Shown here piece after piece: positions 8,625 through 58,317 of a stretch of DNA of 64,000 nucleotides. The position numbers and the translations under genes were made by a program. Position 1 is the first letter of the stretch. The number at the start of each line of letters is the position of its first letter. The DNA comes from Echinarachnius parma (lineage: Eukaryota; Echinodermata; Echinoidea; Clypeasteroida; Echinarachniidae). Under the pieces are notes generated by a model. It was not told the origin of the DNA. It searched no databases and saw nothing but the letters and a program-made list of their open reading frames with translations. Where the stretch lies: assembly GCA_037951105.1 (NCBI GenBank), contig JBAMJV010007378.1:34949-98948 (forward strand). The letters are read 5' to 3'.

Positions 8625-8829
8625 TATAGCTCAAGTTGAACAAATTAGTAGAATACCGGCCACTGAGATAAAAGTGAGAAAGTTTATTTCATGTATAGCT
8701 CACCTTGATCATTATTTTGGATATATAAATAACACTTCTAAAATATAAACCTTGTCACCTCATGAAAATACATGGCATTTTTGTACATGATTTCAAGGAA
8801 ATACACTGATTTTCTAAATGCATATATTA

Positions 8830-28144: not shown

Positions 28145-31100
28145 ATGGTGCAACCAGTCCCAGAGCATATGAACTTCCCCAAGGAAGAGGAGGAGATTCT
28201 AAAGCTGTGGAACGAACTTGATGCATTCCAGACATGCCTCAAACAGTCCAAGGGAAAACCTAGGTGAGAACCATTCATATGCAATATACCATACTGCTGT
28301 GTGTCGTAGGCAATGCTAAGAGTAAGACAATGCCCGGCTTTGCAGGCACTTTTGACCTGCCAGCGCATGCATTGTCTATGTACCTATAGAATACAATCAG
28401 GAAATTATGCTTATCGCATATAAATGGTCATACAACCTAGCATACTTGTAGTTGATGTCTCTAGCATCATTTTTCTAAATGCCTACATTAGGATCATGCC
28501 ATTTTAAAGTAATAATGTTATTGAGCTGCTAAAATGTATCTTGTTCCATATATTGGAATTACATCAATCTAATTGGCAAGTTGACGATGACAAAACACAT
28601 TCGGAATCTGCATGGAAATCTGAACTTAGACTCTTCAGTTAGATTTTAGATGGAATCCACATGATCATAATGAGTTCTTTTTTTTTATCCTACTCTTCAC
28701 TAGATTTTGCAATGCCCAAAGAGTTTATACAAAGCCCACCATGCAGGTGTCACAATTTACTTTCATTCATTTTCTGATCTCCCAGGTATGCATTCTATGA
28801 TGGCCCACCCTTCGCCACTGGCCTGCCGCACTACGGCCACATTCTAGCTGGAACCATCAAGGACATCGTGACAAGATACGCCCACCAAAGTGGTTACCAT
28901 GTCGACAGGAGATTTGGATGGGACACCCATGGCTTGCCTGTGGTAAGTTGTCGCATATTTGGGGTTCTTAAAAGTCAATGCTGTAAACTCTTTAATTTTA
29001 GGATTTCGTAGAGCCTAGCTTTATTATTTCAGAGACCATTTCTAAAATGGTTAATGTCGGGTTAGACAACCCTCGAAATTAACTTTTTTTGCTGGTGGCC
29101 CGGTCGGGCCAGTAAAATTAGTATTTTTCCAATTTTGGTGGCCCGAAACCAAAATCTACTGGCCCGAAAAAAATAAGGAAAAACAAAAGTAAAATTAAAA
29201 CAATAACCATATTCATAGTTTCAGGGTACTGGGCAATGTTTAGCCTCATTTGTTATTCCAATGCTCGAAATTATCTTTTTTTCTGGTGGCCCGAAAATAA
29301 AATTTACAAACAAAGAAAAACAATGGTCATGACTACTTGGTCATTAATTGGTAAATTATGGAAGTTATGTGTTAAAATTACCACCATCATTAAAGAAATC
29401 CATCACTGAATAAACAAAACAAAACCTAGAATCGAGCAGTTTCATCTAAGAGTCATCAACTGATGAAACTAAGCTCTTTTCCATGTACGATTTTGTTATT
29501 TTATGGTCCATAAAATCTCCAACACAAAAAAACACACATGGGACTGAGCATAGCTCAGATAACTTTTCAAATCGGGAAATGAAATCACTTAAATCTTTGT
29601 TATTTTACAAGCTAAAATTATTCCAAGTAGTCACAAGTCTCTACCTTGTAAAAATGATTCCTTCTAATACCTTCAAAAATATGAATAATGATCCGAAAGA
29701 TGAAATTATTCCCCTTTATTGACGGTATCGCGGACGGTATCGCAAAGCAATATGAATGAATGTGAAAAGTTAGACATGTGTTTTGATAGGTCTTAGTATG
29801 CACACATACTCCCTCTGTGGATTGGTTGTTCTATGTTTATATTCTACATGTTGCAAAGGCTTCCAGGGGGTGTGTGGGAAATTAAGAAAACAGCATAAGC
29901 ATGCTTTTACTTTTAGTCATTACACACCTCTGGAAGTTGTTTAATTTTACCATGATTTATCATGCAAGAAGTAGATAATTCAAGGGAGAGTGTTCATATG
30001 AGGAAATAGCACATATTTGTAGGCATAAATAAGGATTAATTCAACTAGCGCAAGTGCGCTTGCGACTTTTTATGTCCGTCCTTTTCATTTCTTGCAAATA
30101 TTTAAATCACAATTAAAGTGTTTTTAAGAGGTGTCAAACTTGAGATTCATATTCCTTGATGTTGTCTTCTTATGGTTTAAACATTTGGTGGCCCGATCGG
30201 GCCACCAAACTTTGGCATTTTCATGTTTTTACTGGCCCGACCGCAACTTTTACTGGCCCCGGGCCATCGGGCCTACGCCAATTTCGAGCGTTGGGTTAGA
30301 GTAAAAGTGTCTTTGTCAGCCATTATTTATGCCTCCACTAACGAAGTGTCTGGAGAGCTGAGGAGGCATGGTATTCCTTCACTAGAGTGCCTCAGCAGTG
30401 GTTTAAAAGCAAATGGGATGGAGCAAGGTGTGCAATTGTCCTCTCTGTAGAAGAAACTTTTGCTACCCTAGATGACACCCCCACCACTTCCAGTTTGGTA
30501 AAATAAAGAATTACATCTCTGCTGATAGTTTTAGTTGACACATACTCCCCACCTTCTTTGTGTACTTGGGGGTGTTGCATAAAGAGTTGCAATCAATCGC
30601 AAATCAGAAAATACTCTCATTTGAACCAATCAGATTTGCGCATTGTGGCAAAATTTTCTGACTTTGGATTAATTGCAACTTTGCGATTGATCGATTATAC
30701 CCCCCTGATACCCCCCTGTTTAGGTTCTAGGTTGATCTGGTGACCTACATTAGGTTGATACTAGTAGTACACCTCTGATTCTAGTAATGCTATTTTGGTT
30801 GTTGTTGTTGTTGAACAGGAATATGAGATTGACAAGAAGCTGGGGATCACAGGACCTGACGATGTGCAGAAGATGGGCATTGAGGCTTACAACAACGAGT
30901 GCAGGAAGATTGTATCTCGCTACGCTGGTGAATGGGAGGTAAGACACTGCACATATATCTATACTAGATATCTATCCTATACTAGCACTCTGAAATGGTT
31001 GTACATTGGAACTTTTTGAGAATTTACGAGGACTCCGCCACCAGTGAGTGCAGGAAGATTGTGTGGTGCTGCGCTAGTGAATGGGAGGTTAGAGACAAGA

Positions 31101-34100
31101 CGTATGCTTAATAGTAACAAACAATTTCAGGTGCACCTTTCCTAAACTACCTCCATTGAAAAAACACTCTGAAATTATTTTTACATTAAACTCTGAGAAT
31201 GCAGTGTCGGAAGATTGTGTCTCGTTACGCTGGTGAATGGGAGGTGAGGAACTTCACATACTTGGCAGAGAAACAAATAATATGCCTCCATTGAAATAAC
31301 ACTCTGAAATTGATTGAACATTGAACACTCTGTGAATTTACGAGGACTCCTCCCCCAATAAGTGCAGGATGATTGTGTGTTGCTGTGCTATTGAATGGGA
31401 GGTGAGAGACGAGACATATCTATAATATGCTTAGTACACATGTAGCATTAAACAAAAGTATATCATTTTGGGGGCAACTTTCCTAAACTACCTCCATTGA
31501 AAAAGCACTTTGACATTAATTTTACGATTGTGTCTCAATACACTGGGGAATGGGAGGTGAGAGACTCCACATATCTATGCTTTGCAGGGAAACAAAGATA
31601 ATTATTAGGGGGTTATTTTTCTAACCTGCCTCCATTAATTAGAATAGCACTTTGAACAAATTGCATTAAAAGTGAAACCAGTAAAGTGTCTAACACCACG
31701 AAAATTACTTGGAGCTTCCACATTTCTCTTCTACCGTGTTGTTTGGCTTATGGTAAGAGAAGAATAAAATAGGGTTAGATTTGTTTAAATGCCCCTTTAG
31801 TATGACAATATCTATCATTGATAATCATTCAGCTCAAGAGCGTTAATGAACGTCATAAACCTCATGCACGTTATGCAGTAATTCGTTGTGAAAGCTGACG
31901 CAGATTTTTGCTTTTTTAACCATGAAAGCAGTGTTCTTTTTCAATGAAACTTTCACGCATCATTCGGACATATCTTACAATGATTTTGGTATAGGATTGA
32001 AGTCTCAGATGTAATTTTGGGCACTATCTGACACTTTACAGGTGCACCTTTAAACTATATAGGAATTACCATAAGGGTGCATATTCAATTACAAAAGAAA
32101 TAAAATTGAATATCACTGAATCAATATCACTGTTAAGCAGTAGCTATTTCACTGATTACAACTGTTTGATTTTGCTTTACAGCACATTGTCAAGCGTCTT
32201 GGGCGGTGGATTGACTTCAAGCACGACTACAAGACGATGTACCCCTGGTTCATGGAGAGCGTGTGGTGGGTCTTCAAACAGCTGTATGACAAGGGCATGG
32301 TCTACAGAGGCTTCAAGGTAAATATCCCTCTTATTATTTAGGTTTTTTCCCAGTGATTATTAACACAATGGCCGTTCATAGCTTGTTATTACAAGTGTTA
32401 TAACTGACTGAAATGCAAGAATATAATTCATGGAAAATGTGGTGGGTTGTATGACAAGGGAATGGTCTACACAGGCTTCCTCTAGTCTTACTTTGGTTTT
32501 AGTGCATTTTTCTTTCTCTGTGTTTGATTATGCTATGGTTTTTCATAGTTTGTTATTGAAACAATTTGTATTGACTGTAAGATGATATATTGGTTTATGG
32601 AGAGTACATTGTGGGTCTTCCAATAGATGTACAAGAAGGGCATTGTCTAGAGGCTTCAAGTTATTCAAACTTTGATTACTGCAGGCTCATTATAGTGATT
32701 ACGAGTTGCTGCCCGTTTCCTCTTTCTGCTATGTATATTGTATGTATATTCTAATGATCCAATCAATGAGTAGCTGTAATTAATAGAAAATTTTAGACTA
32801 TTGTAATTTGTGTTTGTTAATGTTTATTTACACCAGGTGATGCCATTCTCAACGGCCTGTAACACTCCCCTGTCAAACTTTGAGTCTGGCCAGAACTATA
32901 AGGATGTGGTCGATCCCGCTGGTAAGTCTCCACATTTGCCCACCTAAACCTGATTGACCTTGTGTTAATTTATTTAGGCTGATTCCTTAAATACTCAGGC
33001 TGGGGTCTACAGAGAATGTATGTTATATCAAAATCAATACCAATCAATCAAAATCTATAAGGGAAATATACACATTTGGGGAAATATGACTGCACTAAAC
33101 AACATGTAGTGATGTTGTTGATAGTCATAATAGTGATTATGATGCTGATTGGAGTTTATTATGATATTAATCAGTTATGAATAACAATGTTAATTGAGAT
33201 TGGTAATGATGACAATTCAATTATTCTCATGATGATTGTGACAATGATGATTTTGTTGCCCACAAAGGTGATAAGTGATAACCCCTTGACTACGGGAACC
33301 GGGTGGGTTGTGTTCAAAGTCTATAGATATTTCGGAATCTCAAAGGGAACAGGTTAAAGGGATAGTTGAGTATTGGTCAAACTTAACTTTAGTAACCAAA
33401 ACCTGCACGATTACGATACAAACTAATAGTTATAACTTCACCATGCTCGAAAAGTATACACAATTACAAACGACAAAGTAAAACCCCTGTTATCATTCAA
33501 AAAGAGCCGTTACAACTCGAAGTGTCAAATTAACTCGGCGCGAAGCACTAGCGTTGTAGGTCCTAATACGGGACTGTATAGTGCAGTGTGCGGTAATACG
33601 GGACTGTAGTGCAGTCACTGTGTGCGGTAATACTATACAGTAGTACGTGTATATTATGTATCGCAACCATAGAAGTATGACTCCAACACTGCCGTTGACG
33701 CAACTCGCAAGCCCCATTCGCATTCGTTCGCCTTTCGTTCACAGTCGCGCTAACACACGGAGAGACTGGTCCATGAGGCGCATATATCACTGATTTTTTG
33801 CGGAATGGAAGGAAAAATCATAATCTTAATCCACCCGGTAGTTGGATCACATATTGGAGAGTAAATTGCTGGTAAGTACCGTATCATATGTATAGTTTTA
33901 AGCACAATTAGCGTGCACACAAATATTTGGTTTCAGTCTTTTATTAGGAGAACATAGAACGCTAGTGCCTCGCACTAGCAGTTCTAAAAAGTGATACCCG
34001 GGCGTCAACCACTTTTATATGATATTTTGAAAGCAAATTTCACAACAATTAGAGCATTTGAATGGAAATTATTATTATTTCCCATGTTTTTTTCGATGAT

Positions 34101-37100
34101 CTTTCATATGGAATTGAAATCAACCAAATCCGTTACAATCGATGTTGGGGGGGGCACTTTGGAAATTACCAAAACTCAACTTGGCCTTTAACAGTGATGA
34201 TACTATGGAGCTATTTATATGATTATATTTAATTGTATTCTGCTTCAGCAGTGGTTACATTGTTCAGTTTGTAATCGATATGATGATGATATTGATTTCC
34301 ATCATTTCATCTCTCTTTGCCAGTGATCATCAGCTTCCCCCTGGATGACACACCCGATGTGAGCATGATCGCCTGGACGACCACGCCCTGGACGTTGCCT
34401 AGCAACCTGGCTCTGTGTGTCAACCCTGATATGGACTATGTGAAGATCACACACAAGAAGGATGGCAAGGTGTACATCCTGATGGAGGCAAGGCTGGGGG
34501 CGCTATTCAAGAAGAACGACGAATACCAAGTGCTGGAGAAGTAAATGATGATGATAATGATGATGATGATGATGATAATAATAATAATAAATAACATTAT
34601 AAGTACAAATTTGGGTGAAAGATAGTAAAGCGTATTGCATTGCACATATAATTTGTTACACATTTTCTTTGTGCTTTACATCTTAGATTGAATTATTCCT
34701 ACATCACAGGATTCACAGTATAAACACAGTCAAGAACTACAAAAAATATAAATATGGAGTGTGGGAGAAATAATAATTAAAATTAATACAGTCACGTATT
34801 TGCATGTAGTACCGTATTTGTCGGTGTATTACCCGCTCCGATGTATTAACCGCACCCCCAACTTTGGCCATTTTTCCATGAAAAAAAAAAAAAATTTGAT
34901 AGTATAATTCTTGATTTTTAGTCTTTAGATGGTCAGCATTTTCTTAGGAAAGGTACCAAAAATAGCTTATCTATCAGAGAAGTTTTGCCTATGAATTTTG
35001 TTTTATTTACTGAAGCCTCCGAAGTAAATAAAGAAAATTATCAGGCCTTCTTCACAGCAGAAGAATCTATAACTTCTGTTGAATTTGCCACACGGATCAC
35101 TACACATGGGACTACATAAAACGTTAGACAACAGAACAAAGATTTCACCAATAAAACAATCAGAACGGAGATTTAAACTAGATGGATCTTCGACTGCGCG
35201 CAGTCGAAAATTATGCCTCCGCTATGACGCAATTTTCAATATCAAGCCCAAAATAACGTGCACTGAAATTTTGTTTTTTTCATATATATATTTTGAGTTC
35301 TGTGACCTTGACCTAGATGTAGACCCCAAACTTTGATGGCTACATTGGCTCCCAAGAATATTCAGGTACCAAGTTAGATTGAAATTTGACATTCAGGTCT
35401 TGAGATTTTGTCATTACAAGCCATTTTTGCATATATATTGAGTCATGTGACCTTGACCTTTGACCCCATGGCCCCCAAACCTAATCCAATCATTGCCACC
35501 CGATGTGTATGTAACTCATTCCAAGTTTCAAATTGATCCGTCAAACGGTTCTTGAGATATCGTGAGGATGCTTTTTTGCACATATATTGAGTCCTGCGAC
35601 CTTGACCTTTCACCTCATGAACCCCAAAATCTAATCAGATCATTGTCACCCCAATATGTACACTCATACCAAGTTTGAAATTGATCCATCAACCGGATCT
35701 AGAGATATCGCAAGAATAAGGCATTTTTGCACATATATTGAGTCCTGTGACCTTGACCTTTGACCTCATGAACCCCAAAATCTATTCAGATCATTGTCTC
35801 CCCAATATATACACTCATACCAAGTTTGAATTTGATCTGTCAACTGGTTCTGGAGATATCGCGAGAACGAGGCATTTAAAAACATATATTGAGTCATGTG
35901 ACCTTGACCTTTGACCTCATGAACCCCAAAATCTAATCAGATCATTGTCACCCCAATATGTACACTCATACCAAGTTTGAAATTGATCCGTCAACCGGTT
36001 CTTGAGTTATCGCGAGAACGAAAACGGGACGTACGTACGGACGTACGTACGGACGGACGTACGTACGGACGGACGGACGGACGGACGGACAACCCGAAAA
36101 CATAATGCCTCCGGCCACTTCGTTGGCGGAGGCATAAAAAAACTGTACCTTAATGTTATTCCTTCTTTCTAGTTCAAATTATGTTCAATCTACTCTTGAA
36201 AACTGTTTCAGGGGATAAGAAATTACGATCGTTACTTGCGAGTGCATTGTACTGATAATATACGATCACGATGTTGTCATGTCAGCTCACATGTTTTGAA
36301 GGGTGGATTATTATTTGAGTATTAGCACTCAATAGTTTAGCATAATTTTGATGACATATTGAGTGCTACAGTGTACAACGTACCAATTTCTTATTTAGCA
36401 TATGCGGAAATCGCACACGTGTGTGCATTCAGCGGCGTGGCCTTTCACCTGAACGAGGGCGCGCCTGCCTGTGCTACCCGCAGCGCTAGCATGCACACCG
36501 CCAGCGCGCACCGCGTACGGCGCGGGGCGGCGGCTTGGGGTCGCGTCGGGAAAGAGAATTCCCGCCTGAGCTGAGCTGAGCTAGCTGCTCGGCCAGTCGC
36601 GCGGGTGCATGTTAGGATTCGTACTAAGATCGTGAATCTTCCAAGCCGCTTTCGCAGCAACAACGAGCAATATTTAGGAAGAGGTAAAAGAGAAACAAAA
36701 GACACTGCATGACTTGTTTTGGGGGGAATATGCTTGTATTTTCCGTGCATCGTATGAGTATGAATGCCTTGCTGAGGTGGACTTTGGTCACTTGTGAATC
36801 TTATCTCCGTGCATTAACCGCATCGTAATTAAGGCCCGGCGCTGGCTAGGCAATTTGCGTGTACAGTTTTCCTATCTCCGTGTATTGACCGCTCCCCCCA
36901 TTTTGGAGCTTTTTTTTGGAGAAAAAAGGTGCGGTTAATACACCGACAAATACGGTATTCATGACATTGTTTGTCTTGAGTCAGATGGTTAGGTTCATTT
37001 ACAAAGTGTTTCTATTTCGTTGGAGATGATAAAAAATAAATAAAAGTAATTAATTATACAATTATTAGACTCTGTCTCTACTCAAGAAACAAGATAAGTG

Positions 37101-43100: not shown

Positions 43101-46100
43101 TAAAAGATCACAACGTTTTGTGCGCCGCTGCAACACTTTGTCAAGTGATATAATATAATGTAAGCAATCGTGTTTTATACTCATCGGGCGGCTCCAACCG
43201 CACTATCTTGCATGTTCCACATTTTATGGATATTTACCATGAAATGCCATAATAAGTTGTACAGATAGCTTGTGAAAGGAATGTTGATGTACTGTATGTT
43301 CGTGAGTTATAGATAATTATAAAATAGTGCTGGGCCTGCCCTGAATAAAATATAAATGTCATAATATTTTCAGTATGAACTTATTTTGAACTTTGACCTT
43401 TGACCTCACAACACCTAGGATGATTACAGAGTGTGCATGGAGCATGGGGTCATCACCAAGGAGATGGTTGTCTGTCCGGTGGACGCCAGCGGCCGCTTCA
43501 CCAGCGAGGTCACAGACTTTGCAGGACAGTATGTCAAGGTCAGTCGTATCATCGTAAACCGGTCCAGGGCCCTGTTGCAGAAAGAGTTGCAATCGATTGT
43601 AAAGTCACAATTAATTGCAAGTCAGATCATGTGACTAAATGCACAAGTCTGATTGGTTCAAATGTGCATATTTTCTGACTGGCAAATAATTGGAACTTTA
43701 CAATTTGTGCAACAGGGCCTTGGACTATTTTCAGCTACACTTAAGCTGGGATCTATAGATCTACACATGATATATCAAAGTCAAATGGTCTTAAATGGGT
43801 TTGTTCTCGGGTTTTATCATCTGAAAGAGCTTTACATATAAATGTGTATACTGTCTTGTGCTATGTCTAACCCTTTTATTAACCCTTTCCATTCAAGATT
43901 CTGAAATCCCCATAGACTTTGTACATAGCCCACCCGATTCCATGTAAGCAACAGGTTAAATATTGAACTATTTGAAAAGTAAAAATATTACAAAATTATG
44001 TATATTGGATAATAATAGAAAGTTCTTCAAGAGATGGTATCACATTGGATATTATACATTGAAATATATCTCTGAAAGTGTCAATGACACTCTTATAGCC
44101 ATTATTAATGTTATCATTCAAAGTCAAAGTAGTAGTCTAGAATTAGAAAGTAGTTGTAGTAGTATAGTTGATTGTTCAGAGTGTTGTACTTTTTGATGTA
44201 ATTATTGACATCCTGTATGTAAATTTCCTACTAATAATTGTTAAATTCAGGATGCTGACAAGCAGATCATCAAGATGCTGAAGACGCTAGGTCGTCTGGT
44301 GGACAGCAGCACCTGCAAGCATAGCTACCCGTTCTGCTGGCGCTCAGACACACCCCTCATCTACAAGGCTGTTCCCAGCTGGTTCATCCGTGTAGAGCCA
44401 ATCGTAGACCGGCTGCTTGCCAACAACCAGCAGACCTACTGGTATGTGGCATACATTCTCTATCATTAGTATTGATAAAGTAATTGTTACGAAAATTAGG
44501 ATTAGGAGTATTATGCTGATGATGCTGACGACGACGGTGAAGGGTTATGTCAACAACCAGCAGATGTACTGACATATTCAGGTTTAAAAGATCATGATGG
44601 ATATGATAATGAAGAAGATGAGGATGGTGGTGGTGGTGGTGGCGGTGTTAGTGGTAAAAGTAGTGATGGTGGTAATAATGATTGTGATTGTAACTAATTG
44701 ATTTATGGTTATGATGTTTGTTTGACAATTAAAAAAAAAAAATTTCAAACATAGGGAAACTGACTAGAAATATATAATATTAATACAAAATGAGCAGAGA
44801 AAATATTTTTTTCTGGGATTCGAACTCGAGACATCCAGATTGCTAGGCCGGTACTCTACCAACTGAGCTATAGAAAGCCCTTATGCTGTGTTCTTTCCTG
44901 AAAACCTTTAGTTTTAAATGCTTGTGTTGGTCAGAAGCTATTATAAACCTGACACTAAGCTCAGCTGGTTGAGCACCGGTCTAGCAATCTGGAGGTCTGG
45001 GGGTCGAATCCCGGAGAAACCCTATTTTCTTTGCTCATTTTCATTTACATTATTTTATTATCAGGGTATTGTTGTTATTGTTCATGACAGGATTCTAGAC
45101 TTTGAGGAGAACTGGCTTTGTGAAATGCATGGTTAGGCAATATCTAAAAAGCAGCAGTTTGTTTTAACCCCAATTCCTGCATTGAATAGCAAATCTTCTA
45201 TTTCTTTTATTGCAAATGATTATTTTGTCTAGAATCTGGAAATTCCAGGGTCCCCGAGTTTGTGAAGGAGAAGCTTTTTGCCAACTGGCTTTGGGATACC
45301 CATGAATAACCAATCTCCAGGAACCGGTACTGGTAAACCCCCATTCCATCTCTCAGTCGGTGAATTGCTTCTTGTTTTGCTCAAGTTTATATTTGTCTTT
45401 TTCTTGAATCTGTATAAACACAGGGTCCCAGAAGCGTTTTGCCAACTGGCTTCGGGATGCCCATGACGGATGGGTCTCTAGGAACCGGTACTGTGGAACC
45501 CCCATCATCTCTGAGTCAGTGAATCTGCAGTATCTTGTATTGATCAAGTTCATTGTTAATTGTTCTTTTTCTTGAATCTGGAAAACACAGGGTCCCAGAG
45601 TTTGTGAAGGAGAAGCGTTTTGCCAACTGGCTTCGGGATGCCCATGACTGGGCGGTCTCTAGGAACCGGTACTGGGGGACCCCGATCCCTCTGTGGGTGA
45701 GTGAGGATCTGCAGGAGATCGTCTGCATTGGATCCATCCAGGAGCTCAAGGAACTCACCGGGGTGGAGATTACTGACCTTCACAGGGAACAGTAAGTTTA
45801 TCCATTCAGGAAAACAATTTTTTTGAAAGAAACTTTACTACCAACCTGGTTCAAAATAGAGCCCCAAAAACATGAGCATCAGCAAACTTTTTCCTGCGTG
45901 TAATTTTGAGATTCATACGGCTTTATAAGTCCTATAAAGCGTAAAATCTTGTAACATAGCAACATGTGTATACTTCAATAAAAAATAGCTGGCTCCTAAT
46001 TTTGATTTTCTTTTTGGTGAAAATTTGACCACAAAAATGCAAATTTTGAGAGAATGTCGTCAATATTTTGCTTTCTTAAAAGTGCATAGACAAAGCACAC

Positions 46101-49100
46101 ATACAACCATGACTCGCACGCTCAATTGCCGCTTTTACTTATTTGACCTTGTTACCTGATACTTCCATTTTCTCCATACACTTACCGTGCACTGGCTTAT
46201 AGCAGCCAGCTTGCATATAGTGGCCACCATAATTGATCCCCTGCAGAGAAATAAGAAATTCAATGTTAAGGAACCTATCTACATTGCTCGCTTTTCTTGT
46301 TCTTCCCTTAGGTGGTCTTTATACACAAGTTTGACTGTACCTTTTATTTTCCCCATTCTAGTGTTGATAAGTTGACAATCCCATCGAAGCGTCCAGGCAT
46401 GCCACCGCTGCGTCGTGTCTCTGAGGTGTTTGACTGCTGGTTTGAGAGTGGTAGTATGCCCTACGCCCAGATGCACTACCCCTTTGAGAACAAGAAGGAG
46501 TTTGAGGACAGCTTCCCGGCAAACTTCATTGCAGAGGGCATCGACCAGACCAGAGGATGGTAAGGAAAAACACATTAGATCAGTTATATAATACCAACAA
46601 AAGCAATCCGGAGGTCTCGGTTTTGAAAACTGAGGAAGCTCATTTTCATTTAGATCAGAGCTATGCTGAAAACTGCATGATAATCTCCTTCTGAAAGGAA
46701 AAAGCACTTCAAATGTTAGTTTTATCTAAAGTAAGAAATTACAAACAGTAAATTTCTGTAACTTTACCAAGAGAAAGTTGATATATTGCTAAATGCTGGT
46801 TGGAGACAAAAACATTTGGGAGTGCAACCACTCAGTTTAATAACTACTGACAGTTATCCTGAAAATAACCTAGAAAAGGAAACGTTTATAACACATTTGT
46901 TTGATTTGAAAGAAATAAACCATCCTTTAAGTTTTACATTTATTGAGCTATTGACAGCTCTTTTTGACAAGCCTCTCTGTTCGAGGAACCTCATTGTCAA
47001 CGGGCTGGTGTTTGACTTTGATGGATAGAAGATGAGCAAGAGAAATAAGAACTAACGTGAATGTTGGTATCAATAACCTGGTGACCTTTGATCTTTGACC
47101 CTATCACTGAACAAACTGTTCTACCTAACTTCCTTATCACAGGTTCTACACCCTGATTGTGCTGTCCACTGCTCTGTTTGATAAGCCTCCGTTCCAGAAC
47201 CTCATCGTCAACGGTCTGGTGCTTGCCTCAGATGGGCAGAAGATGAGCAAGAGGAAGAAGAACTACCCTGATCCCCTCAACGTTGTGGACAAGTTTGGTG
47301 CAGATGCACTCAGGTAAGGCTTTCTTATTTATTTATTTAAACATTCATTCATTCATTCATTCATTCATTCATTCATTCATTCATTCATTCATTCATTCAT
47401 TCATTCATTCATTCATTCATTCATTCATTCATTCATTCATTCATTCATTCATTCATTCATTCATTCATTCATTCATTCATTCATTCATTCATTCATTCAT
47501 TCATTCATTCATTCATACATACAATTCATTCATTTATGTATTTATTTATTATTTATTCAAAACAAATATATACATGTGGACCTGCTTTACAAGAAAGCCC
47601 TGCAACATTAAAACAACCACAGTTTGCAAAGTAAATCAAGAATATTATCCTATATTATATATTATATTAGAGCATGAAGCGAAAGCATTTTGTATATTAA
47701 CTCCAACTCTGTGTTTTTGCTGCTAGATTGTACCTGATCAACTCGCCTGTTGTGCGTGCAGAAAGTCTTCGGTTCCAAGAGACAGGAGTGCGTGATGTAC
47801 TGAAGGACATCTTCCTACCGTGGTTCAACGCATACCGTTTCCTCATGCAGAACGTGGAGAGACATCAGAGGGTGAGAAACAGTAACCTCCCTCAATTCCA
47901 TTCACCAAGATAAAACGGGAAGAAAAGAAGTTATTCTTGAAAAATATGGAGGAATAAGTTTTCAATATGGTTATCTACATGTATCTATTGCATTATTGTT
48001 AAAAACATATCAATAATGTAGGCTTTGGAAAAGCATCCTGACTTTTCAGGTATCACAAATTGGAAGGTTTTTGGGGGTCAATTTTATTCTTCTAAAAACG
48101 TACCTTTATTTTGATAAAATTGTCTTAATGAGTGAAGAAGAAAACTAAGATATTAAACAGATATTTTGACGGTGGGGTTGATAATGTCCCATTGAGTTAT
48201 TATTGATTTGTATGTGTCTCTGATATTGAGAGGTGTTAATGCTTCTTTTGTACATATTTATATTTGCTATGTATGTTCATCCCGCAGGAAGAGAATGCAG
48301 TGTTCCTGCACAACGAGGCAAGTTTCCAGCCGACTGATAACATCATGGATCGCTGGATCCTCTCCTTCACTCAGTCTCTCACCAAGTTCTTTCACACGGA
48401 GATGTCTGGTGAGTGATGTTAGACATTGATAATAATAATAACAACAACAACAGCAATAACAATAATAGTAAATAATAATAATAATAGGATCGATTAATAT
48501 GGCACCTAATATGATACATTATCATCTCACAGTGCTTTACTATTACCCGGTCAATAGAATACAATGCCAGCCCCCACACATTGTGTGCACCATCTCCACT
48601 CCCTGGGGAGCATTCCTTCTAAGCGGCTCATGGGCATTGAGAAGATCATTCACATAAAGGCTTTCACCTCCTACTGTGTCCCAATTTATGCATCTGGGTA
48701 CAGAGCATCAATAGTGGATCAATTGTCTTGCTGAAGGACAAATGCAGTGGGCATTCATAGGGTTCGAACTCTGGATCTCATGATTAAAAAATGCACGCTC
48801 TACCAATCTTGCCATACCACTATAATGATAATGATAATTAAAAATATGAATAACGATAGGCATTCATCCATTTTACATTATATCCCTACATCTGACATGT
48901 AGAGGAATTCGTGAAGGAATAAAAGTTTATAAGTTAAGTTTCAGGAACATGTAACATGAGATTGAAAATGAATCTCTGCTTTTCTTGAGATGTTGGCATT
49001 AAACAATTAATATACCGAAATATGATGTCCATAACACATTATCCCTTATTTGAGTGCTTACATAATGTATACCTCACTACCTCAATGTTTTCTTGCATGC

Positions 49101-52100
49101 CTATTCTTTGCTTGCTTTTTTAGCCTACCGATTGTACACAGTGGTGCCCAGGCTGGTCAAGTTTGTGGACATGCTGACCAACTGGTACGTCCGGTCAAAC
49201 AGGAAGAGACTGAAGGTAAGCTGGTTAGTTTTTGAAAGGATCTAGTAACTTTGTTGACATGTGAAAAAAGTGCTGAATGGTTGATAAAATGTATATTGTT
49301 GTGATCTGATATGTCTACTGAGTAATATTACAAAAATTCACGTCCAATTGATGTTATATGGCTTTTAGACTACCAGAAACAATTTCTTCATAGGATATAA
49401 TCAAAGTAAATATAATCAGAAAATTAAACATATTTTGCAAAATGGTCTGTTAACCAAGCCTCCACACTAACTTTTTTTCTACATACCCATTCGGTCGAGT
49501 AAAATCATAAATGTTCATTTTACTTGCCCGAACAGAACATTTACTTGCCTGGAAAAACAATGTGGACAAAAAATAATTGTGCTACTTGCAGGTAGCTCAA
49601 TCTGATTGGCAAATTTCTCTCGATGAGATTTGCACGCAAGGAATTTTCTCAAACCAAACTAGACCGTTTATGAAATTACCTTTCAGGAGTGTTCCTGAAA
49701 ATGATTGGGATGGGATCTATAGAGAATGCATGTCAAATCGTCATCATTTGGTTTAAATGAGAACTATTTTGTTCTTTCTCTCTATGCTAGGGTGAGGGTG
49801 GATTGCAGGACTGCCAGGGTGCACTACACGCTCTCTTCAGCGTGCTCTTCACTATGGTTCGCGTCATGTCACCGTTCACCCCGTTCCTCTCCGAGCACAT
49901 GTATCAGAATCTTCGTCACCTGGCGGACTCTCCCGCTTCAGAGGCACAGCAAGACACTCGCAGTGTGCACTTCCTCATGCAGCCAAAGGCCAGGTTAGTA
50001 TCTTAAATCCTGTGGTATGGAAGCTTATTTACAGTAAACTGCTTGAGGGCTTCCACATTATTTTTCTCTGACATTTGTGTGATGTGTCACCTTGCATTTC
50101 CTGACCGAGTACAAATAACAGAACCTGTGCCACCTTTCAGTAAGTGAAACAATTCAAAGTCAAGTTGATAATTGAGCTAAAAGAAGAAGAACACTACTGA
50201 GTACTGACTGGATTGTCTGGTATGCAGGCACCAACACTCAAGAAGACTTTGAGATTACAATGAATAAATTGAAGCCAAATCATAATTCATATTAAAGCTT
50301 TTTTTTTAATACAGGAAGGACTTGATTAACAATAGTATCAAGTCAGCTGTAACTAAAATACAAACCGTTCATGAGCTGGCAAGAATGAATCGTGAGCTTG
50401 TTACCATCCTAATATGAAAAATATATATCAAATAAAATATGAAAAATTGTTGACTGTTTTGTCTGTATTGCAGGGAGGACTTGATCGATAGTAGCATCGA
50501 GTCTGCGGTCACCAACATGCAAGCGGTCATTGAGTTGGCACGAGTGATCCGTGACCGAGTGACCATGCCAACCAAGTACCCACTGAAGGAGGTTGTGGTC
50601 ATCAACCCGAGCCAGGAATGCTTGGACGATGTTAGGTCTCTGGAGAAGTACATCATTGAGGTAAGTTACATCAGAATTTGATTTCCTCAAACTTGTAGCA
50701 GTGATTGTCTGTATGTAAAGATCCTTTGATCTTTACCTTTATATCACCGGATGAGAAAGAGAAGGGCCCTAGTATAAAGTTTCTTCCTATTTGTTTAGTA
50801 GTAATTCAGAGATAATCAAACCCTCTTAAATTTTTGATAAATATTTCAACAATAAGAAATAATTGTTAACTGAAAATTTTGCTTCACATAAAGGGAGCCC
50901 TAATCTACAAGGTGGTATGCATAACTCAATTTAGCCAAATTTGACTTTACGTCCTTATCACCCTCACCTGACAATACATTATATTTATCTTGTATTAAAA
51001 GCAGTTAGCATTCTCCTAAAAAGCAACTTCAAGGTCATATTCTTGTTCTCTATTCAATATATTCATGTATGTATTTCAACATAATTTGTCATTGTTTTTA
51101 TCGATGAATCCCAGGAGCTGAATGTACGCAAGGTGACGACCTCACAGGACAAGGGCAAGTACCACGTCAACCTTCATGCCGAACCAGATCACATGATCTT
51201 GGGCAAGCGGCTGAAGGGTGACTTCAAGCGTGTGACAGCGGGCATCCAGAAGCTGACCGACGCTCAGCTGCAGGCATATGTGGCGTCGGGTCAGATTGAG
51301 GTCGAGGGTCACCAGCTTGGCAAGGATGACCTGAGACTGAGCTACGCCCTGGGCGAGTCGTCGGAGTCTTCGCAGTACCAGGCACACTCTGATGGAAAGG
51401 TACGTTGCAGGCCTTGGATTATGAACCCATTCCAGACTGCTTCAATTTAGTATAACCAGCTTTCTCCATTGACCTGTTTAAATCAAATACTTATCAAATA
51501 TAATTCAATAATTCTGAGTGCTTGTCGCCTAATCATTTCAGTCTTTCTGCTTAGCAGTTTGTAATGAATGCCAATGAATTAGAAAGCACAAGTGTAACGT
51601 GCATTTCCTTTTTAGTTATTTTGAATGATTGATAATCGTACCATAAAGAATAGCTGAAAAAGAATTTGTAGACACCATATGGTCCTTCTATGTCAAGAAA
51701 TGTCTTTTCACTAGTGACAATTCATGTAATGTTATCATATTTATTTTATTTCTCTTTACTAGATCCTAGTTCTGCTTGATGTCACTCCGGACCAGTCCAT
51801 GTTGGATGAAGGGGTGGCCAGAGAGGTCATCAACCGCATCCAGAAACTGAGGAAAAAGGTATGACGACCGATCAACATTTTCAAGTTCAGTTTAAATGTG
51901 CATAAATGCAGTTATTTAGCATTTAGAAAGTGTGTGTGTCATCCAGCATTTTACATTTGAGAAATAAATGCAAGATTTAATTATGGAAAAGCATCAACTT
52001 TTTGCTGAATAAAGCAATGCTGTTTGTCACTGAGTTTTGTTTATTCAGTATTCCAACTCTCTGCATAAATTGAGAAACATCTATGATTGTGAGGTAAGAT

Positions 52101-53947
52101 GCTGTTTTATGCACTTTACCCATATTCGTAGCAGCAAAGAAAGTTGGTATGAAAGTAATTTTGTAACCACCTATCGCAATGTTTTCTAATTTTCTGAAAA
52201 TCAATTTTCCAACAATATGGACATTACATTTCCTTATCATAAACAATTACAACAATCTTACCAACGGTCATTGGTAAGATTCTTGTAAAATAAATTGCTG
52301 TGCGCAGTTATTTGATGTCCTTTTGCATTCCTCCCCATTACCTCCTTTAGGGTAAACTGATGCCTACCGAGGATATCACCATCTTCTACAAAGTGGAGCC
52401 GCATAGCGACCGTCTCAACCAAATCATCCCTGCCCATGAGGAGTACATATTTAGCACCATCAAGCAACCCCTCAGACCATTCCCTCTTTCCAGCAGTGCT
52501 GAGGAGATTGTCAGAGAAACATTTCAGGTACGTTGGCTACATGATGTTGTTATTGTTATTGATATTACGGTTGTTACTTAGCAACCGTCTCAACCAAATC
52601 ATCCCCGCCCATGAGGAGTACATCTTTAGCACCATCAAGTAACCCCTCAGACCAATCCCTCTTTCCAGCAGTGCTGAGGAGATTGTCAGAGAAACGATTC
52701 AGGTATGTCAGGCTCTTGATGATATTGTTCCCTCTTCCTAGCAGAGCTGTGGAGATATCAGAGAGCTGTCAGAGAAACCTTCTGGGTGCATCAGCTATTT
52801 ATTGTTCTTGTTGTAAGCTATGTCCAGTAAAAGAAATATGAATATGTCCAGTAAAAGAAATATCAATATGTTTATAAAATAAATTCAGAATGCGATTTTG
52901 ATGACTACTTTTTATGGAATAGTTCACCCAACCAAAAAAAACCCCAAAGAAATGAATTAAGCTTGTGTTCTGAGTCTCAGCTAAGTCTCTATCCTGGGTC
53001 CTTGCAGAATACTTGTACCAAAATCAAAGGTCTACCTCCATTAAGTGTTGCTAATTTATCTTCTCTGTTCTCTGATAATAAACATTTGCAGCTGAAGGGG
53101 CCCAGTCTGGAGCTAGTAATTGTGAGGGGTCACATTGACACCAAAGCGGTTACCGTAGGAGCGGTCGGTAACGGTCCAACACCTTTCTGCAAGTTTGTCA
53201 ATGTGGAGCTGTGTGATGCCAAGCCATCGCATGGCGCCCGTAGCACGAGAGGGTCTGTTCTACTGGAGAACCCGCCTGGTGACTTCCTGCTGACGGTGGA
53301 CGAGCTTGCGGCACACATTGCTGTTATCTTCGGGCTGCATGGCAAGAAGGTCACATTGTACAGAGCCAAGAACAAGAGCAACGGTGAGTTGAAATTACAT
53401 TTCCTTTTATACTCCTGTCAAAAGTTTTGTTTGAAGACCGCAATCCACATCTTACTAACTGAATTATAGAAAAACATTCTCTGTATTGAGCCATGAACAA
53501 AATGTTTATCATTCCTTCTTTATTTATTGATTCATAACCAAATACTTTTGGACATGTCAGGTCTAGCAGATGCTTTTTATTTGTTTTTACTTATACGATG
53601 CTGTATGTTTAAGAGTTTGTTACTGTGCTATGAGCAGGTCTCTGCTACTCATTGCTGTAGCTATGGGGAGGGATTGAAACTATGAGAGGCCCTTGAAATG
53701 TGATATTATTAAACAGAAATATACATGTAAAGTCAGAAATCATCCATCAAATATTATTTGTAAACATTTTGTGTGAATGCAAGTGTGTTTATTTAATGTT
53801 TACCATTTTCAGTTGATTGTTTATATTTCATATGATTAATATATCTTTTTCCCCCTCTCCCTTCTGATTATTTTGTTTTCAGCTCTCAACAATGTGAAGT
53901 CCATCGTCTCCCTGAGCGGTAGCACCCTATACGCCTACGTCAGTTGA
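28145..53947 (+). CDS. IARS1: Isoleucine--tRNA ligase, cytoplasmic
   Basis: Twenty-three coding exons: 28145-28263, 28786-28942, 30819-30938, 32183-32317, 32837-32921, 34324-34540, 42091-42151, 42776-42871, 43419-43538, 44251-44441, 45591-45791, 46362-46559, 47143-47313, 47727-47871, 48288-48408, 49124-49215, 49791-49993, 50474-50660, 51115-51399, 51763-51858, 52351-52527, 53092-53383, 53883-53947. All introns are GT-AG, phases agree, and the sum is 1177 codons plus TGA. It charges tRNA-Ile in the cytosol (class I synthetase; part of the multisynthetase complex in animals). Visible motifs: HYGH (55-58), TTTPW of the editing domain (224-228), GTGVVHQA (318-325), [16 protein letters not shown] (600-604). 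The ATG is in good context (GCCATGG). The C terminus has one UNE-I-like repeat instead of the two in vertebrates (about 1262 residues). Several exons have decayed copies in flanking introns. Confidence 0.98.
28786..28942 (+). other. IARS1: IARS1 exon 2, HIGH motif
   Basis: Encodes [16 protein letters not shown] (residues 43-58), the class I nucleotide-binding motif in its usual IleRS form HYGH, plus [11 protein letters not shown]. The acceptor CTCCCAG completes Arg40 across the junction. Confidence 0.97.
29067..30294. mobile_element. 1.23-kb TIR element, second copy of the 7234 family
   Basis: Runs from CAACCCTCGAAATTAAC to CCAATTTCGAGCGTTGG and is flanked by GTTAGA at 29061-29066 and 30295-30300. 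Subterminal GGCCCG / CGGGCC blocks match the first copy. A second CGAAATTA-type partial end at about 29258-29300 suggests a nested or rearranged arm. It lies in IARS1 intron 2. Confidence 0.85.
30562..30715. mobile_element. MITE with GGGGGTGTTGCATAAAGAGT ends
   Basis: GGGGGTGTTGCATAAAGAGTTGCAATC-type left end; the right end has GATTGATCGATTATACCCCCC and a TTGCAACT-type inverse. It is related to the elements at 43566-43724 and 22909. It lies in IARS1 intron 2. Confidence 0.6.
31021..31575 (+). pseudogene. Four decayed tandem copies of the 3' part of IARS1 exon 3
   Basis: After the true exon (ending 30938, GAATGGGAG|GTAAGAC), its last 35-45 bases recur at 31046-31088, 31203-31243, 31360-31401 and 31524-31557, spaced about 157 bp. 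Each ends in GAATGGGAG followed by GT (GTTAGAG, GTGAGG, GTGAGA, GTGAGA). Flanking intron words (TTTACGAGGACTCC, CTACCTCCATTGAAAAA, CACATATCTAT) are duplicated with them. The second copy still reads [13 protein letters not shown]. Confidence 0.85.
31664..32053. mobile_element. MITE family B, copy 3
   Basis: AGTAAAGTGTCTAAC at the left and GACACTTTACAGGTGCACCT at the right, with the shared interior. It lies in IARS1 intron 3, next to the exon 4 acceptor. Confidence 0.8.
32428..32662 (+). pseudogene. Two decayed copies of IARS1 exon 4
   Basis: 32428-32479 (GTATGACAAGGGAATGGTCT) and 32582-32660 (GGTTTATGGAGAGTACATTG, then TAGAGGCTTCAAG) match the second half of exon 4 (32183-32317) with indels and substitutions. 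They lie in intron 4, downstream of the true exon. Confidence 0.8.
33354..34191. mobile_element. TTAA-flanked MITE, family A, copy 3, with insertion
   Basis: TTAAAGGGATAGTTGAGTAT at the left and CAAAACTCAACTTGGCCTTTAA at the right. It is enlarged to 838 bp by a nested insertion at about 33525-33985. It lies in IARS1 intron 5. Confidence 0.8.
33525..33985. mobile_element. Nested element related to palindromic element P2
   Basis: GCGCGAAGCACTAGCG at 33538 and CGCTAGTGCCTCGC near 33960 are approximate inverted ends. The right half shares GGTAAGTACCGTATCATAT and GTTTTAAGCACAATTA with the arms of P2 (18704-19326). Tandem AATACGGGACTGTA units lie inside. Confidence 0.65.
34324..34540 (+). other. 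IARS1: IARS1 exon 6, CP1 editing domain
   Basis: Encodes [12 protein letters not shown] (222-233), the threonine-rich signature of the CP1 domain that hydrolyses mischarged Val-tRNA-Ile. The donor GTAAAT leads into ATG/ATA microsatellite DNA and the 7.5-kb intron 6. Confidence 0.95.
34541..34595. repeat. ATG/ATA microsatellite at the exon 6 donor
   Basis: GATGATGATAATGATGATG and ATAATAATAA runs begin within a few bases of the exon 6 donor. Confidence 0.85.
34810..36957. mobile_element. 2.15-kb TIR element, TACCGTATTTGTCGGTGTAT
   Basis: TACCGTATTTGTCGGTGTAT at the left and ATACACCGACAAATACGGTA at the right are perfect inverted ends; CCGC / GCGG continues inward. It carries a nested element (35211-36136) and a GC-rich block at 36415-36620. 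It lies in IARS1 intron 6. No transposase frame was seen. Confidence 0.85.
35211..36136. mobile_element. Nested element with TTATGCCTCCGC ends and about 150-bp repeats
   Basis: TTATGCCTCCGC at 35211 and GCGGAGGCATAA at 36136 are inverted. Inside, five units of about 150 bp start with ATATATTGAGTC.TG(T/C)GACC and include TGACCTTTGACCTCATGAAC and CTCATACCAAGTTTGAAATT. They are followed by GTACGTACGGAC simple repeats (36028-36093). A perfect 16-bp palindrome, CGACTGCGCGCAGTCG, is at 35191. A fragment of the same end occurs at 30327. Confidence 0.8.
37118..41105. mobile_element. 4-kb head-to-head palindrome
   Basis: Left arm 37118-39015 and right arm 39026-41105 are inverted copies around a 10-bp centre (ACACAGTACT). 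Ends are GGGTCAATCCACGTCAAATC and its inverse, flanked by ATTT on both sides. Each arm has a unique outer part (about 500 bp) and an inner array of about 198-bp units containing GGGAATTGGCAGACATTCAC, GCTACCGGAACGTTTAACGG and CGAAAATGGTCGTAAACACA: six units on the left, seven on the right. The 182-bp arm-length difference fits one extra unit. Mirrored 62-codon frames at 37606 and 40438 are by-products. It lies in IARS1 intron 6. Confidence 0.92.
41195..41874. mobile_element. 680-bp TIR element (AATAAGGGAGTTCGTA)
   Basis: AATAAGGGAGTTCGTAGTTA at the left and TAAGTACGAACTCCCTTATT at the right are inverted. The interior has CpG-rich GCGTGCGTGCG words and poly(A) runs. It lies in IARS1 intron 6, 90 bp from the previous palindrome. 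Confidence 0.75.
42296..42492. mobile_element. SINE-like repeat with CTCCCTGGGGAGCAT block
   Basis: ATAATAAATTACATTTATAT followed by AGCACTTAATAC and CAACTCCCTGGGGAGCATAC. The same words occur at about 48470-48620, so this is a dispersed family. It lies in IARS1 intron 7. Confidence 0.5.
43566..43724. mobile_element. 159-bp MITE, GGCCCTGTTGCAGAAAGAGT
   Basis: AGGGCCCTGTTGCAGAAAGA at the left and TTTGTGCAACAGGGCC at the right, with inverted TTGCAAT/ATTGCAA and TCTGATTGG words inside. It lies in intron 9, 27 bases after the exon 9 donor. Confidence 0.8.
44515..44580 (+). pseudogene. Decayed copy of the end of IARS1 exon 10
   Basis: CAACAACCAGCAGATGTACTG at 44552-44572 repeats the exon 10 ending CCAACAACCAGCAGACCTACTG (44420-44441), about 130 bp downstream. 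Only the last 25 or so bases are clear. Confidence 0.6.
44788..44880 (-). mobile_element. tRNA-derived SINE, inverted partner
   Basis: On the minus strand: GGGCTTTCTATAGCTCAGTT (box A), an anticodon-loop region CTAGCAA, and GAGTTCGAATCCC (box B), then a tail with CTGCTCATTTT. The 5' and 3' ends do not form an acceptor stem, so this is not a functional tRNA. Confidence 0.65.
44950..45048 (+). mobile_element. tRNA-derived SINE
   Basis: TAAGCTCAGCTGGTTGAGCA (box A), CTAGCAATCTGGAGGTC, and GGGGGTCGAATCCCGG (box B), then TTGCTCATTTTCATTT. It is the same family as the piece at 44788 in the opposite direction, 70 bp away. A tail fragment lies at about 46598-46650. Confidence 0.65.
45240..45560 (+). 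pseudogene. Two decayed upstream copies of IARS1 exon 11
   Basis: Copies start at 45249 (after CCAG) and 45424 (after AACACAG), before the true exon at 45591; spacing is 175 and 167 bp. Each carries the GAAGCGTTTTGCCAACTGGC block, GGAACCGGTACTG, and the following intron with GTCTTTTTCTTGAATCTG. Copy 2 has lost about 16 bases (GAGTTTGTGAAGG...) and both have frameshifts. Acceptor sites survive. Confidence 0.9.
46925..47060 (+). pseudogene. Decayed upstream copy of IARS1 exon 13 (KMSKS exon)
   Basis: 46945-47055 matches exon 13 (47143-47313): CTCTTTTTGACAAGCCTC, AACCTCATTGTCAACGGGCT, then GATGGATAGAAGATGAGCAA, where CAG has become TAG just before the KMSK codons. No clear acceptor or donor. 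It lies about 210 bp upstream of the real exon. Confidence 0.88.
47143..47313 (+). other. IARS1: IARS1 exon 13, KMSKS loop
   Basis: Encodes [27 protein letters not shown] (600-604) is the second ATP-binding signature. A decayed copy of this exon lies about 210 bp upstream. Confidence 0.97.
47341..47530. repeat. ATTC tetranucleotide microsatellite
   Basis: More than 40 uninterrupted CATT units just after the exon 13 donor. The frame reading HSFI repeats is not a gene. Confidence 0.98.
48425..48830. mobile_element. AAT/AAC microsatellite and SINE-like repeat
   Basis: Starts with AATAATAATAACAACAAC, then a block similar to 42296-42492 (ACTCCCTGGGGAGCATTC), and ends with a minus-strand tRNA-like piece at 48755-48820 (GGGTTCGAAC box B). 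It lies in IARS1 intron 15. Confidence 0.55.
50307..50417 (+). pseudogene. Decayed upstream copy of IARS1 exon 18
   Basis: After TTTTAATACAG (acceptor-like, ending 50314), the copy reads [16 protein letters not shown] in frame with the real exon ([16 protein letters not shown], from 50474). It remains open for about 33 codons to a TGA. No donor is evident. It lies 160 bp upstream of the true exon. Confidence 0.88.
52581..52702 (+). pseudogene. Near-identical downstream copy of IARS1 exon 21 with a stop
   Basis: AACCGTCTCAACCAAATCAT through GTCAGAGAAACGATTCAG repeats 52406-52527 with only a handful of differences, one being CAA to TAA (ATCAAG-TAA). It retains a donor, GTATGT. The copied unit begins inside the exon, so it has no acceptor of its own. 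Confidence 0.92.
52720..52795 (+). pseudogene. Third, more decayed piece of IARS1 exon 21
   Basis: TCCCTCTTCCTAGCAGAGCTGTGGAGATATC followed by CTGTCAGAGAAACCTTC matches the end of exon 21 with insertions, 170 bp beyond copy 2. Confidence 0.75.
53092..53947 (+). other. IARS1: IARS1 exons 22-23, single C-terminal repeat
   Basis: Encodes [11 protein letters not shown], then [12 protein letters not shown] and [11 protein letters not shown]-stop. In vertebrate IARS1 this module is present twice (LLENPKG... and LLENPLG...). Here only one is found before TGA, accounting for most of the 85-residue length difference. No second copy was seen downstream in the 3' UTR. Confidence 0.85.
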
Positions 53948-56756: not shown

Positions 56757-58317
56757 CATCAACATGATCAAAACCACCACCATCATCAATCATAACCATC
56801 ATCACAACCACCAGCATTGGCATCAACATGATCAAAACCACCACCATCATCAATCATAACCATCATCACAACCACCAGCATTGGCATCAACATGATCAAA
56901 ACCACCACCATCATCAATCATAACCATCATCACAACCACCAGCATTGGCATCAACATGATCAAAACCACCACCATCATCAATCATAACCATCATCACAAC
57001 CACCAGCATTGGCATCAACATGATCAAAACCACCACCATCATCAATCATAACCATCATCACAACCACCAGCATTGGCATCAACATGATCAAAACCACCAC
57101 CATCATCAATCATAACCATCATCACAACCACCAGCATTGGCATCAACATGATCAAAACCACCACCATCATCAATCATAACCATCATCACAACCACCAGCA
57201 TTGGCATCAACATCATCAAAACCACCACCATCATCAATCATAACCATCATCACAACCACCAGCATTGGCATCAACATCATCAAAACCACCACCATCATCA
57301 ATCATAACCATCATCACAACCACCAGCATTGGCATCAACATGATCAAAACCACCACCATCATCAATCATAACCATCATCACAACCACCAGCATTGGCATC
57401 AACATGATCAAAACCACCACCATCATCAATCATAACCATCATCACAACCACCAGCATTGGCATCAACATGATCAAAACCACCACCATCATCAATCATAAC
57501 CATCATCACAAACCACCAGCATTGGCATCAACATGATCAAAACCCACCCACCATCATCAATCATAACCATACATCACAACCACCAGCATTGGCATCAACA
57601 TCATCAAAACCACCACCATCATCAATCATAACCATCATCACAACCACCAGCATTGGCATCAACATGATCAAAACCCACCACCATCATCAATCATAACCAT
57701 CATCACAACCACCAGCATTGGCATCAACATGATCAAAACCACCACCATCATCAATCATAACCATCATCACAACCACCAGCATTGGCATCAACATGATCAA
57801 AACCACCACCATCATCAACATAACCATCATCACAACCACCAGCATTGGCATCAACATGATCAAAACCACCACCATCATCAATCATAACCATCATCACAAC
57901 CACCAGCATTGGCATCAACTATCATCAAAACTACCACCATCATCAATCATAACCATCATCACACCACCAGCATTGGCATCAACATGATCAAAACCACCAC
58001 CATCATCAATCATAACCATCATCACAACCACCAGCATTGGCATCAACATGATCAAAACCACCCACCATCATCAATCATAACCATCATCACAACCACCAGC
58101 ATTGGCATCAACATGATCAAAACCACCACCAATCATCAATCATAACCATCATCACAACCACCAGCATTGGCATCAACATGATCAAAACCACCACCATCAT
58201 CAATCATAACCATCATCACAACCACCAGCATTGGCATCAACATGATCAAAACCACCACCATCATCAATCCATAACCATCATCACAACCACCAGCATTGGC
58301 ATCAACATCATCAAAAC
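56757..58317. repeat. 64-bp minisatellite, about 24 units
   Basis: Unit CATCAACATGATCAAAACC... to ...CCACCAGCATTGG, period 64 bp (56757, 56821, 56885 and so on). Units are nearly identical, with occasional single-base indels and a GAT/CAT swap. Because 64 is not a multiple of 3, reading frames rotate and the His/Asn or Met/Val frames are not genes. The unit itself is built of CAT/CAC/AAC triplets. Confidence 0.97.

Follow-up and report, generated by a model that had tools for sequence, protein, structure and literature searches.

Decayed partial copies of IARS1 exons in Echinarachnius parma and short tandem duplication in its genome

Exon copies and their nearest counterparts

Tandem exon duplication has reportedly been treated by Letunic et al. 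(2002), and internal gene duplication, or tandem genomic duplication, is said to have been considered as an intron source by Gao and Lynch (2009). In the available parts of the studies on tandem exon duplication (Ivanov and Pervouchine 2022, PMC9013439; PMC12343006), an exon is copied beside itself in its own gene together with intron flank, and intronic, unannotated or degenerate copies already form a recognised class. According to the accessible text of PMC9013439, exonic bases that have a homologue of at least 80% identity amount to about 2% in human, 0.08% in the fly and 0.06% in the worm. The portion at hand of PMC12343006 (Exonize) puts full-exon duplication at about 4-7% of the genes of vertebrates, finds more genes affected by partial and intronic events, and treats degenerate copies as a class. 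Moreover, tandem duplication is discussed as an intron source in the available portions of PMC3443670 and PMC2809761, and template switching around DNA transposons in that of PMC8277862. A literature search, judged by titles and the openings of abstracts, returned nothing that we recognised as a genome-wide habit of the type described below or as exon duplication of nucleosome length.

The IARS1 gene of Echinarachnius parma shares the main properties of tandem exon duplication, as 6 of its 23 exons have a direct copy beside the parent in the same gene and the adjoining intron sequence is duplicated as well. However, the published studies, in their available parts, centre on whole and often spliced exons, whereas the confirmed copies in IARS1 are all partial and dead. 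Internal gene duplication as an intron source (PMC3443670, as far as its accessible part goes) likewise involves a short duplication inside a gene, but there the unit lies within an exon and makes an intron, whereas here it crosses an exon border, so that a dead exon piece ends up in an intron already present. Satellite and minisatellite arrays offer a third comparison. Like them, the exon copies show abutting head-to-tail units of similar size (151, 156 and 198 bp for the arrays in the window, i.e. the whole stretch of 64,000 nucleotides analysed here), higher-order growth (two units, at exon 3) and copy-number variation (between paired contigs). Unlike satellites, the exon-copy families have few copies and mostly locus-unique units, and they are old, decayed and contain exon pieces. 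The phenomenon is known in kind, as tandem exon or internal gene duplication, and apparently extreme in rate. We consider the exon fossils, with a probability of about 0.87, to be the coding-visible part of a genome-wide process of short head-to-tail tandem duplication.

Inventory of the copies in IARS1

IARS1 occupies positions 28145-53947 of the window (+ strand) and is intact, with 23 coding exons, a single open frame of 1177 aa and GT..AG borders at all introns; its protein matches human cytosolic IARS1 (9w01_B, E 5e-247 and 1e-211). Each exon was aligned to the 700 bp on either side, with the other IARS1 exons masked, and compared with a null of 400 far intervals of the window per exon, which gave 46 exon-side tests. 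Significant direct copies were found at six exons, all with a best p of at most 1.5e-6: exon 3 (four copies, p 1.5e-6 to 1.7e-3), exon 4 (two, best p 2.6e-13), exon 11 (two, best p 4.5e-19), exon 13 (one, p 5.8e-18), exon 18 (one, p 2.6e-9) and exon 21 (two, p 7.5e-25 and 2.4e-4). An independent self-blast returned the identical six. An earlier note on this DNA had listed the same exons and exon 10 in addition; the candidate at exon 10 (21 of 24 bases, p 0.008) fails significance after correction for the 46 tests. Exon 17, absent from that list, has a marginal copy. Among the 46 tests no inverted copy was significant (smallest p 0.012), and at a score of 150 inverted copies were found at 0 of the 23 exons. 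The parents, the copies and the larger arrays are the following.

30819-30938, + strand: exon 3, parent (gene model)
31039-31087, 31203-31243, 31315-31401 and 31524-31556, + strand: four degenerate copies of the 3' portion of exon 3 with its donor
32183-32317, + strand: exon 4, parent (gene model)
32427-32479, + strand: decayed copy of the 3' part of exon 4, with gaps of 11 and 2 bases
32573-32660, + strand: decayed copy of the 3' part of exon 4, with a stop and a frameshift
35279-36022, + strand: 151-bp tandem array in intron 6, non-exonic
37715-40512: two 198-bp tandem arrays in intron 6, non-exonic, of 6.5 and 7.5 copies, back to back in opposite orientation
44251-44441, + strand: exon 10, parent
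44548-44571, + strand: candidate copy of the final 24 bases of exon 10, not significant (p 0.008)
45249-45363, + strand: degenerate copy of the 5' portion of exon 11; two stops, acceptor AG retained
45430-45544, + strand: degenerate copy of the 5' portion of exon 11; one stop and frameshifts, acceptor AG retained
45591-45791, + strand: exon 11, parent (gene model)
46931-47060, + strand: degenerate copy of the 5' portion of exon 13; two stops, acceptor lost
47143-47313, + strand: exon 13, parent
49791-49993, + strand: exon 17, parent
50062-50162, + strand: copy of a central piece of exon 17, marginal (p 4.8e-4)
50315-50407, + strand: degenerate copy of the 5' portion of exon 18; frameshifts, acceptor AG retained
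50474-50660, + strand: exon 18, parent
52351-52527, + strand: exon 21, parent
52577-52702, + strand: youngest copy, of the 3' part of exon 21, 118 of 126 bases identical, with one stop, donor GT retained
52728-52781, + strand: another and shorter copy of exon 21, 73 bp behind the previous one

The main steps between the units are 149-214 bp, the exception being the 73 bp between both copies of exon 21, and no copy begins farther than 618 bp from its parent stretch. At exon 3 the copies belong to an array (30857 to about 31640) that consists of five units, each about 155 bp long, and has a two-unit higher order; a doubtful sixth unit reaches 31800. Units 2 and 4 (84.6%) and units 1 and 3 (80.0%) are closer to one another than most neighbours are, so an early pair was itself duplicated as a whole. 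At exon 11 there are three units plus a weak fourth (the copy at 45080-45178, p 0.005), and other weak extra copies were found at exon 18 (50199-50259, p 0.007) and exon 5 (p 0.017). In practice, gene finders and homology searches will mistake such fossils for exons; in fact, the search with PF00133 returned decayed exon copies as separate matches.

Two further repeats lie beside exons of the gene. Exon 9 directly follows a TTTGACCTTTGACCT stretch (window 43390-43418), which resembles the 151-bp array of intron 6, and this upstream repeat may supply the acceptor of exon 9. Directly behind exon 13, at window 47342-47559, lies a run of 54 CATT units.

Anatomy, decay and origin of the copies

All confirmed copies in IARS1 are partial and consist of exon pieces with intron flank; whole exons are absent among them. 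They lie on both sides of their parents, as the earlier note had described: those of exons 3, 4 and 21 (3' part with donor) downstream, and those of exons 11, 13 and 18 (5' part with acceptor) upstream. Head-to-tail duplication across an exon edge predicts exactly this arrangement, and the predicted side was found in 6 of the 6 families of IARS1. In other genes, where profile hits fail to mark the exon ends exactly, 19 of 23 rows clearly lie on the predicted side, three are undecidable (L013:1841, L045 and L051) and one is contrary (L017:6520).

The copying of intron flanks was likewise borne out. In the 26 exon rows, which come from all genes sampled and include one intronic pair of the same array that has no exon bases, the duplicated intron parts measure 14-185 bp and are 80% identical over 2073 aligned bases; in 20 of these rows they score at least 150 ungapped. 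After realignment of the flanks the copies are spaced by 0-8 bp in 23 of the 26 rows and by 12, 19 and 87 bp in the others. Across the 51 families collected in the genome sample the spacing is at most 5 bp in 28, 6-60 bp in 16 and more in seven. A nearly perfect, abutting duplication of 195 bp (99% identical) at L025:3898-4287 in contig C3500 lends itself well to an inspection of the junction. Full-exon copies were seen in 0 of 25 families, against about two expected under uniform placement, which is no significant depletion (P 0.11).

These features agree with the origin proposed earlier, repeated short tandem duplication instead of retroposition, as flanks are copied, orientation is direct, copies abut and the side is as predicted. 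Retroposition or the capture of exon pieces by transposons would at first sight suit the dispersed repeats in the window and the 13 of 51 units that match another sampled locus. Nevertheless, we put its probability at next to nil, considering that intron flanks are copied, that the copies abut and are only direct at exons, that those in IARS1 all lie within about 620 bp and that most units are locus-unique. Processed pseudogenes have no introns and lie away from their parent, a description that suits none of the copies.

Under the tandem duplication that we favour, a segment of roughly 150-250 bp across an exon edge would be duplicated head to tail. Of the two copies, the one still attached to the remaining exon would continue as the working exon. 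The other would come to lie in the intron, on the same side as the copied flank, and would decay there free of constraint. Some pairs would grow into small arrays through further rounds, with copies gained or lost. The likeliest first step, in our judgement, would be slippage or template switching during replication, and later changes in copy number would most likely proceed by unequal exchange.

The copies show the signs of such decay. Several of them carry stops or frameshifts and each has at most one splice site. Sorted by the codon position of the parent, differences in 14 copy rows number 60 of 378, 46 of 381 and 103 of 381 at positions 1, 2 and 3 (position 3 versus 1 and 2: p 1.7e-7), a count in which parents with several copies enter several times; when the weak rows of exons 10 and 17 are left out, the values are 13.5, 11.2 and 25.5%. 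Differences at position 3 are about double those at positions 1 and 2, as expected if the copy drifts everywhere and the parent only at position 3. It is therefore very unlikely that the copies are functional extra exons under selection, whether used alternatively, in a mutually exclusive manner or as poison exons. In human, duplicated exons that lack annotation are sometimes expressed (PMC9013439, in its available part), and the splice dinucleotide is retained here in 9 of the 11 assessable strong copies; the earlier note had likewise spoken of often intact splice sites. This retention, however, is about the level left by neutral drift at 14% per site. An open frame with both splice sites, as mutually exclusive exons possess, was found in none of the copies.

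The copies had also been described as being at different stages of decay, and they do differ in age. Pair identities range from 65% to 99% (51 families), which points to a duplication process that is long-running and continuing. Recent change is seen in contigs that carry the same gene in pairs (C6484/C11573, C4637/C172, C2977/C3355 and C8375/C6105) and are about 4-13% different in aligned introns. Such pairs are probably the haplotypes of a very heterozygous, unpurged assembly, or else recent paralogues; for IARS1 no partner contig was found in the genome. The gene in C6484 is closest to ValRS, that in C8375 to CCT epsilon and the exon in C2977 to bacterial-type IleRS, and the 36-aa exon in C4637 fits LeuRS, ValRS and IleRS with no decision among them. 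In the valyl-type gene, C6484 has an extra exon-intron copy of 190 bp that is absent from C11573, and an exon stretch has three copies in C4637 versus one in C172 (332 bp extra). As two exon arrays thus differ in copy number between paired contigs, the change is recent. A rough tally shows unequal copy numbers within the pair for 16 of 18 aaRS families, three of them having no match in a partner whose coverage is incomplete. Both CCT copies that were compared are common to the two contigs, so not all copies are recent.

The same contigs bear on the question of whether the assembler might have strung two haplotype versions head to tail. The divergence of roughly 4-13% in introns is what an unpurged diploid assembly would give, and the youngest non-exonic pairs could include artefacts of this type. 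As an account of the exon copies it is nevertheless highly improbable. Both haplotype exons would be intact, whereas the copies contain stops, frameshifts and a drift of 11-16% at codon positions 1 and 2, are truncated inside exons and spread in age over 65% to 99% identity; moreover, two CCT copies are present in both contigs. Falsely duplicated haplotypes have two functional copies with allele-like differences, and this was not found here.

Occurrence in the genome, exon bias and unit size

The genome of the window comprises 1.2 Gb in 14790 contigs. From it we sampled further aaRS loci as well as contigs picked by number; the random, aaRS and window DNA examined adds up to about 190 kb, and the coding stretches to 64 (a number that excludes those of the PRA1 gene and the TF-like stretch of the window). 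Families were collected with 120-bp tiles at a score of at least 150 with a direct copy within 600 bp, using one contig of each pair for the aaRS loci. Their density is 3.10 per 10 kb in IARS1 (8 in 25.8 kb), 3.05 in the other aaRS loci (18 in 59 kb) and 3.14 in the random contigs (22 in 70 kb). It varies along the genome, as the window outside IARS1 is poor in families (3 in 38.2 kb, 0.8 per 10 kb). Tiles with a direct copy number 115 of 614 in IARS1, 59 of 830 in the rest of the window, 129 of 1336 in the other aaRS loci and 177 of 1552 in random contigs; for inverted copies the corresponding numbers are 21, 40, 59 and 43. Exon-sized intervals have a direct copy in 192 of 582 cases in IARS1 introns (a figure raised by the satellite arrays), 62 of 546 in the rest of the window, 228 of 1141 (20%) in random contigs and 198 of 1153 in the other aaRS loci.

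Coding stretches outside IARS1 were defined from profile hits. The scan found local copies at 7 of 15 in other aaRS genes, 11 of 20 in CCT and 2 of 6 in myosin, 20 of 41 altogether, and inverted copies, by best score (150), at 0 of 15, 0 of 20 and 0 of 6. Within the window, the PRA1-family gene and a TF-like stretch have copies at 0 of 4 coding stretches (20 of 45 when these are included). For 38 of the 51 units no match was found at any other sampled locus. The earlier note had left open a genome-wide mutational habit or a property of this locus, and the recurrence of the same copies in aaRS, CCT and myosin genes and in random contigs speaks for the habit, within which IARS1 is ordinary. That something in IARS1 itself makes its exons duplicate is extremely unlikely: the copies at six of its 23 exons and the scarcity of families in the rest of the window could be read in this way, but other aaRS loci and random contigs have an equal family density, other genes a higher exon rate, and intervals in IARS1 introns are matched as often as its exons. 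The locus-special reading was rejected on the equal density and the higher exon rate elsewhere. Likewise, the density of copies, held to be unusual for one gene, is not so within this genome (6 of 23 exons here, 20 of 41 in other genes). Between species it does look unusual, as 508 of 3534 exonic bases of IARS1 (14.4%) are matched elsewhere in the gene by a copy with an identity of 80% or more, versus the about 2%, 0.08% and 0.06% given in the accessible text of PMC9013439, obtained by different methods. A sizeable share of exons with dated, decaying copies forms a natural record of the birth, growth, loss and tolerance of short tandem duplications in essential genes, and bears on intron growth, the birth of alternative exons and intron gain by duplication.

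A bias of the duplication towards exons is suggestive, and we regard it as likely. Against the 20% base of random contigs the excess at exons has p 3e-5 (20 of 41) or 4e-4 (26 of 68, with IARS1 and the four window stretches added). The bias may be merely apparent, if duplications land anywhere and exonic ones are recognisable longer through their conserved parent. In simulations the detection advantage of exons is 1.01 for ages to 0.2 and 1.33-1.36 for ages to 0.4-0.5. Against a base raised to 27%, which allows for this longer visibility (simulated ratio 1.36), p becomes 0.002 (20 of 41), 0.009 (20 of 45) or 0.03 (26 of 68), and within IARS1 exons (6 of 23) are not enriched over intron intervals (192 of 582). 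Nevertheless, the intron parts of the units are still 80% identical over the 2073 bases (with an ungapped score of 150 or more in 20 of the 26 rows), which implies that equally old non-exonic units would mostly be detected, and the values against the 20% base are low. Taken together, we give the merely apparent bias a little less than an even chance. An enrichment test confined to the window (6 of 10 families, p 9e-5 to 0.03) was dropped, the window outside IARS1 being poorer in families than the genome sample.

A characteristic unit near 190 bp is likewise suggestive. At exons the unit measures 154-253 bp in 22 of 26 rows, and the other four (269, 306, 338 and 366 bp) are read as multiples; two myosin copies have units of 178 and 222 bp. 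Family units at random loci spread from 50 to 606 bp (KS versus exon units p 0.002, with the two sets aligned somewhat differently and four multi-step rows replaced by hand-entered base steps). A putative link of such a unit size to the length of a nucleosome or an Okazaki fragment is an existing idea. That a process with a unit near one nucleosome repeat or Okazaki fragment prefers exons, and leaves about one third to one half of the coding exons with a present or recent dead neighbour, appears unlikely to us though not far-fetched. A preference of nucleosome-sized duplication for exons would perhaps be due to well-placed nucleosomes on exons, and another influence on the pattern of exon units could be selection against decoy splice sites that lie close together. 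With this material one can count directly whether the size of duplications follows chromatin or replication units.

The window contains several other features. Its satellite patterns had no match in genome and viral contig collections, and an Rfam search gave no match. The PRA1-family gene lies at 10294-11831 (- strand; PF03208, E 4e-27). A decayed 240-bp tandem family is found at 7842-8464, outside any known gene, and a dispersed repeat occurs at 8429-8644 (- strand) and 29055-29189 (+ strand), the frames of which read alike. In addition, there is a 156-bp satellite at 142-2305 (13.8 copies at 97%) and a 64-bp minisatellite at 56757-58317 (24 copies at 98%).
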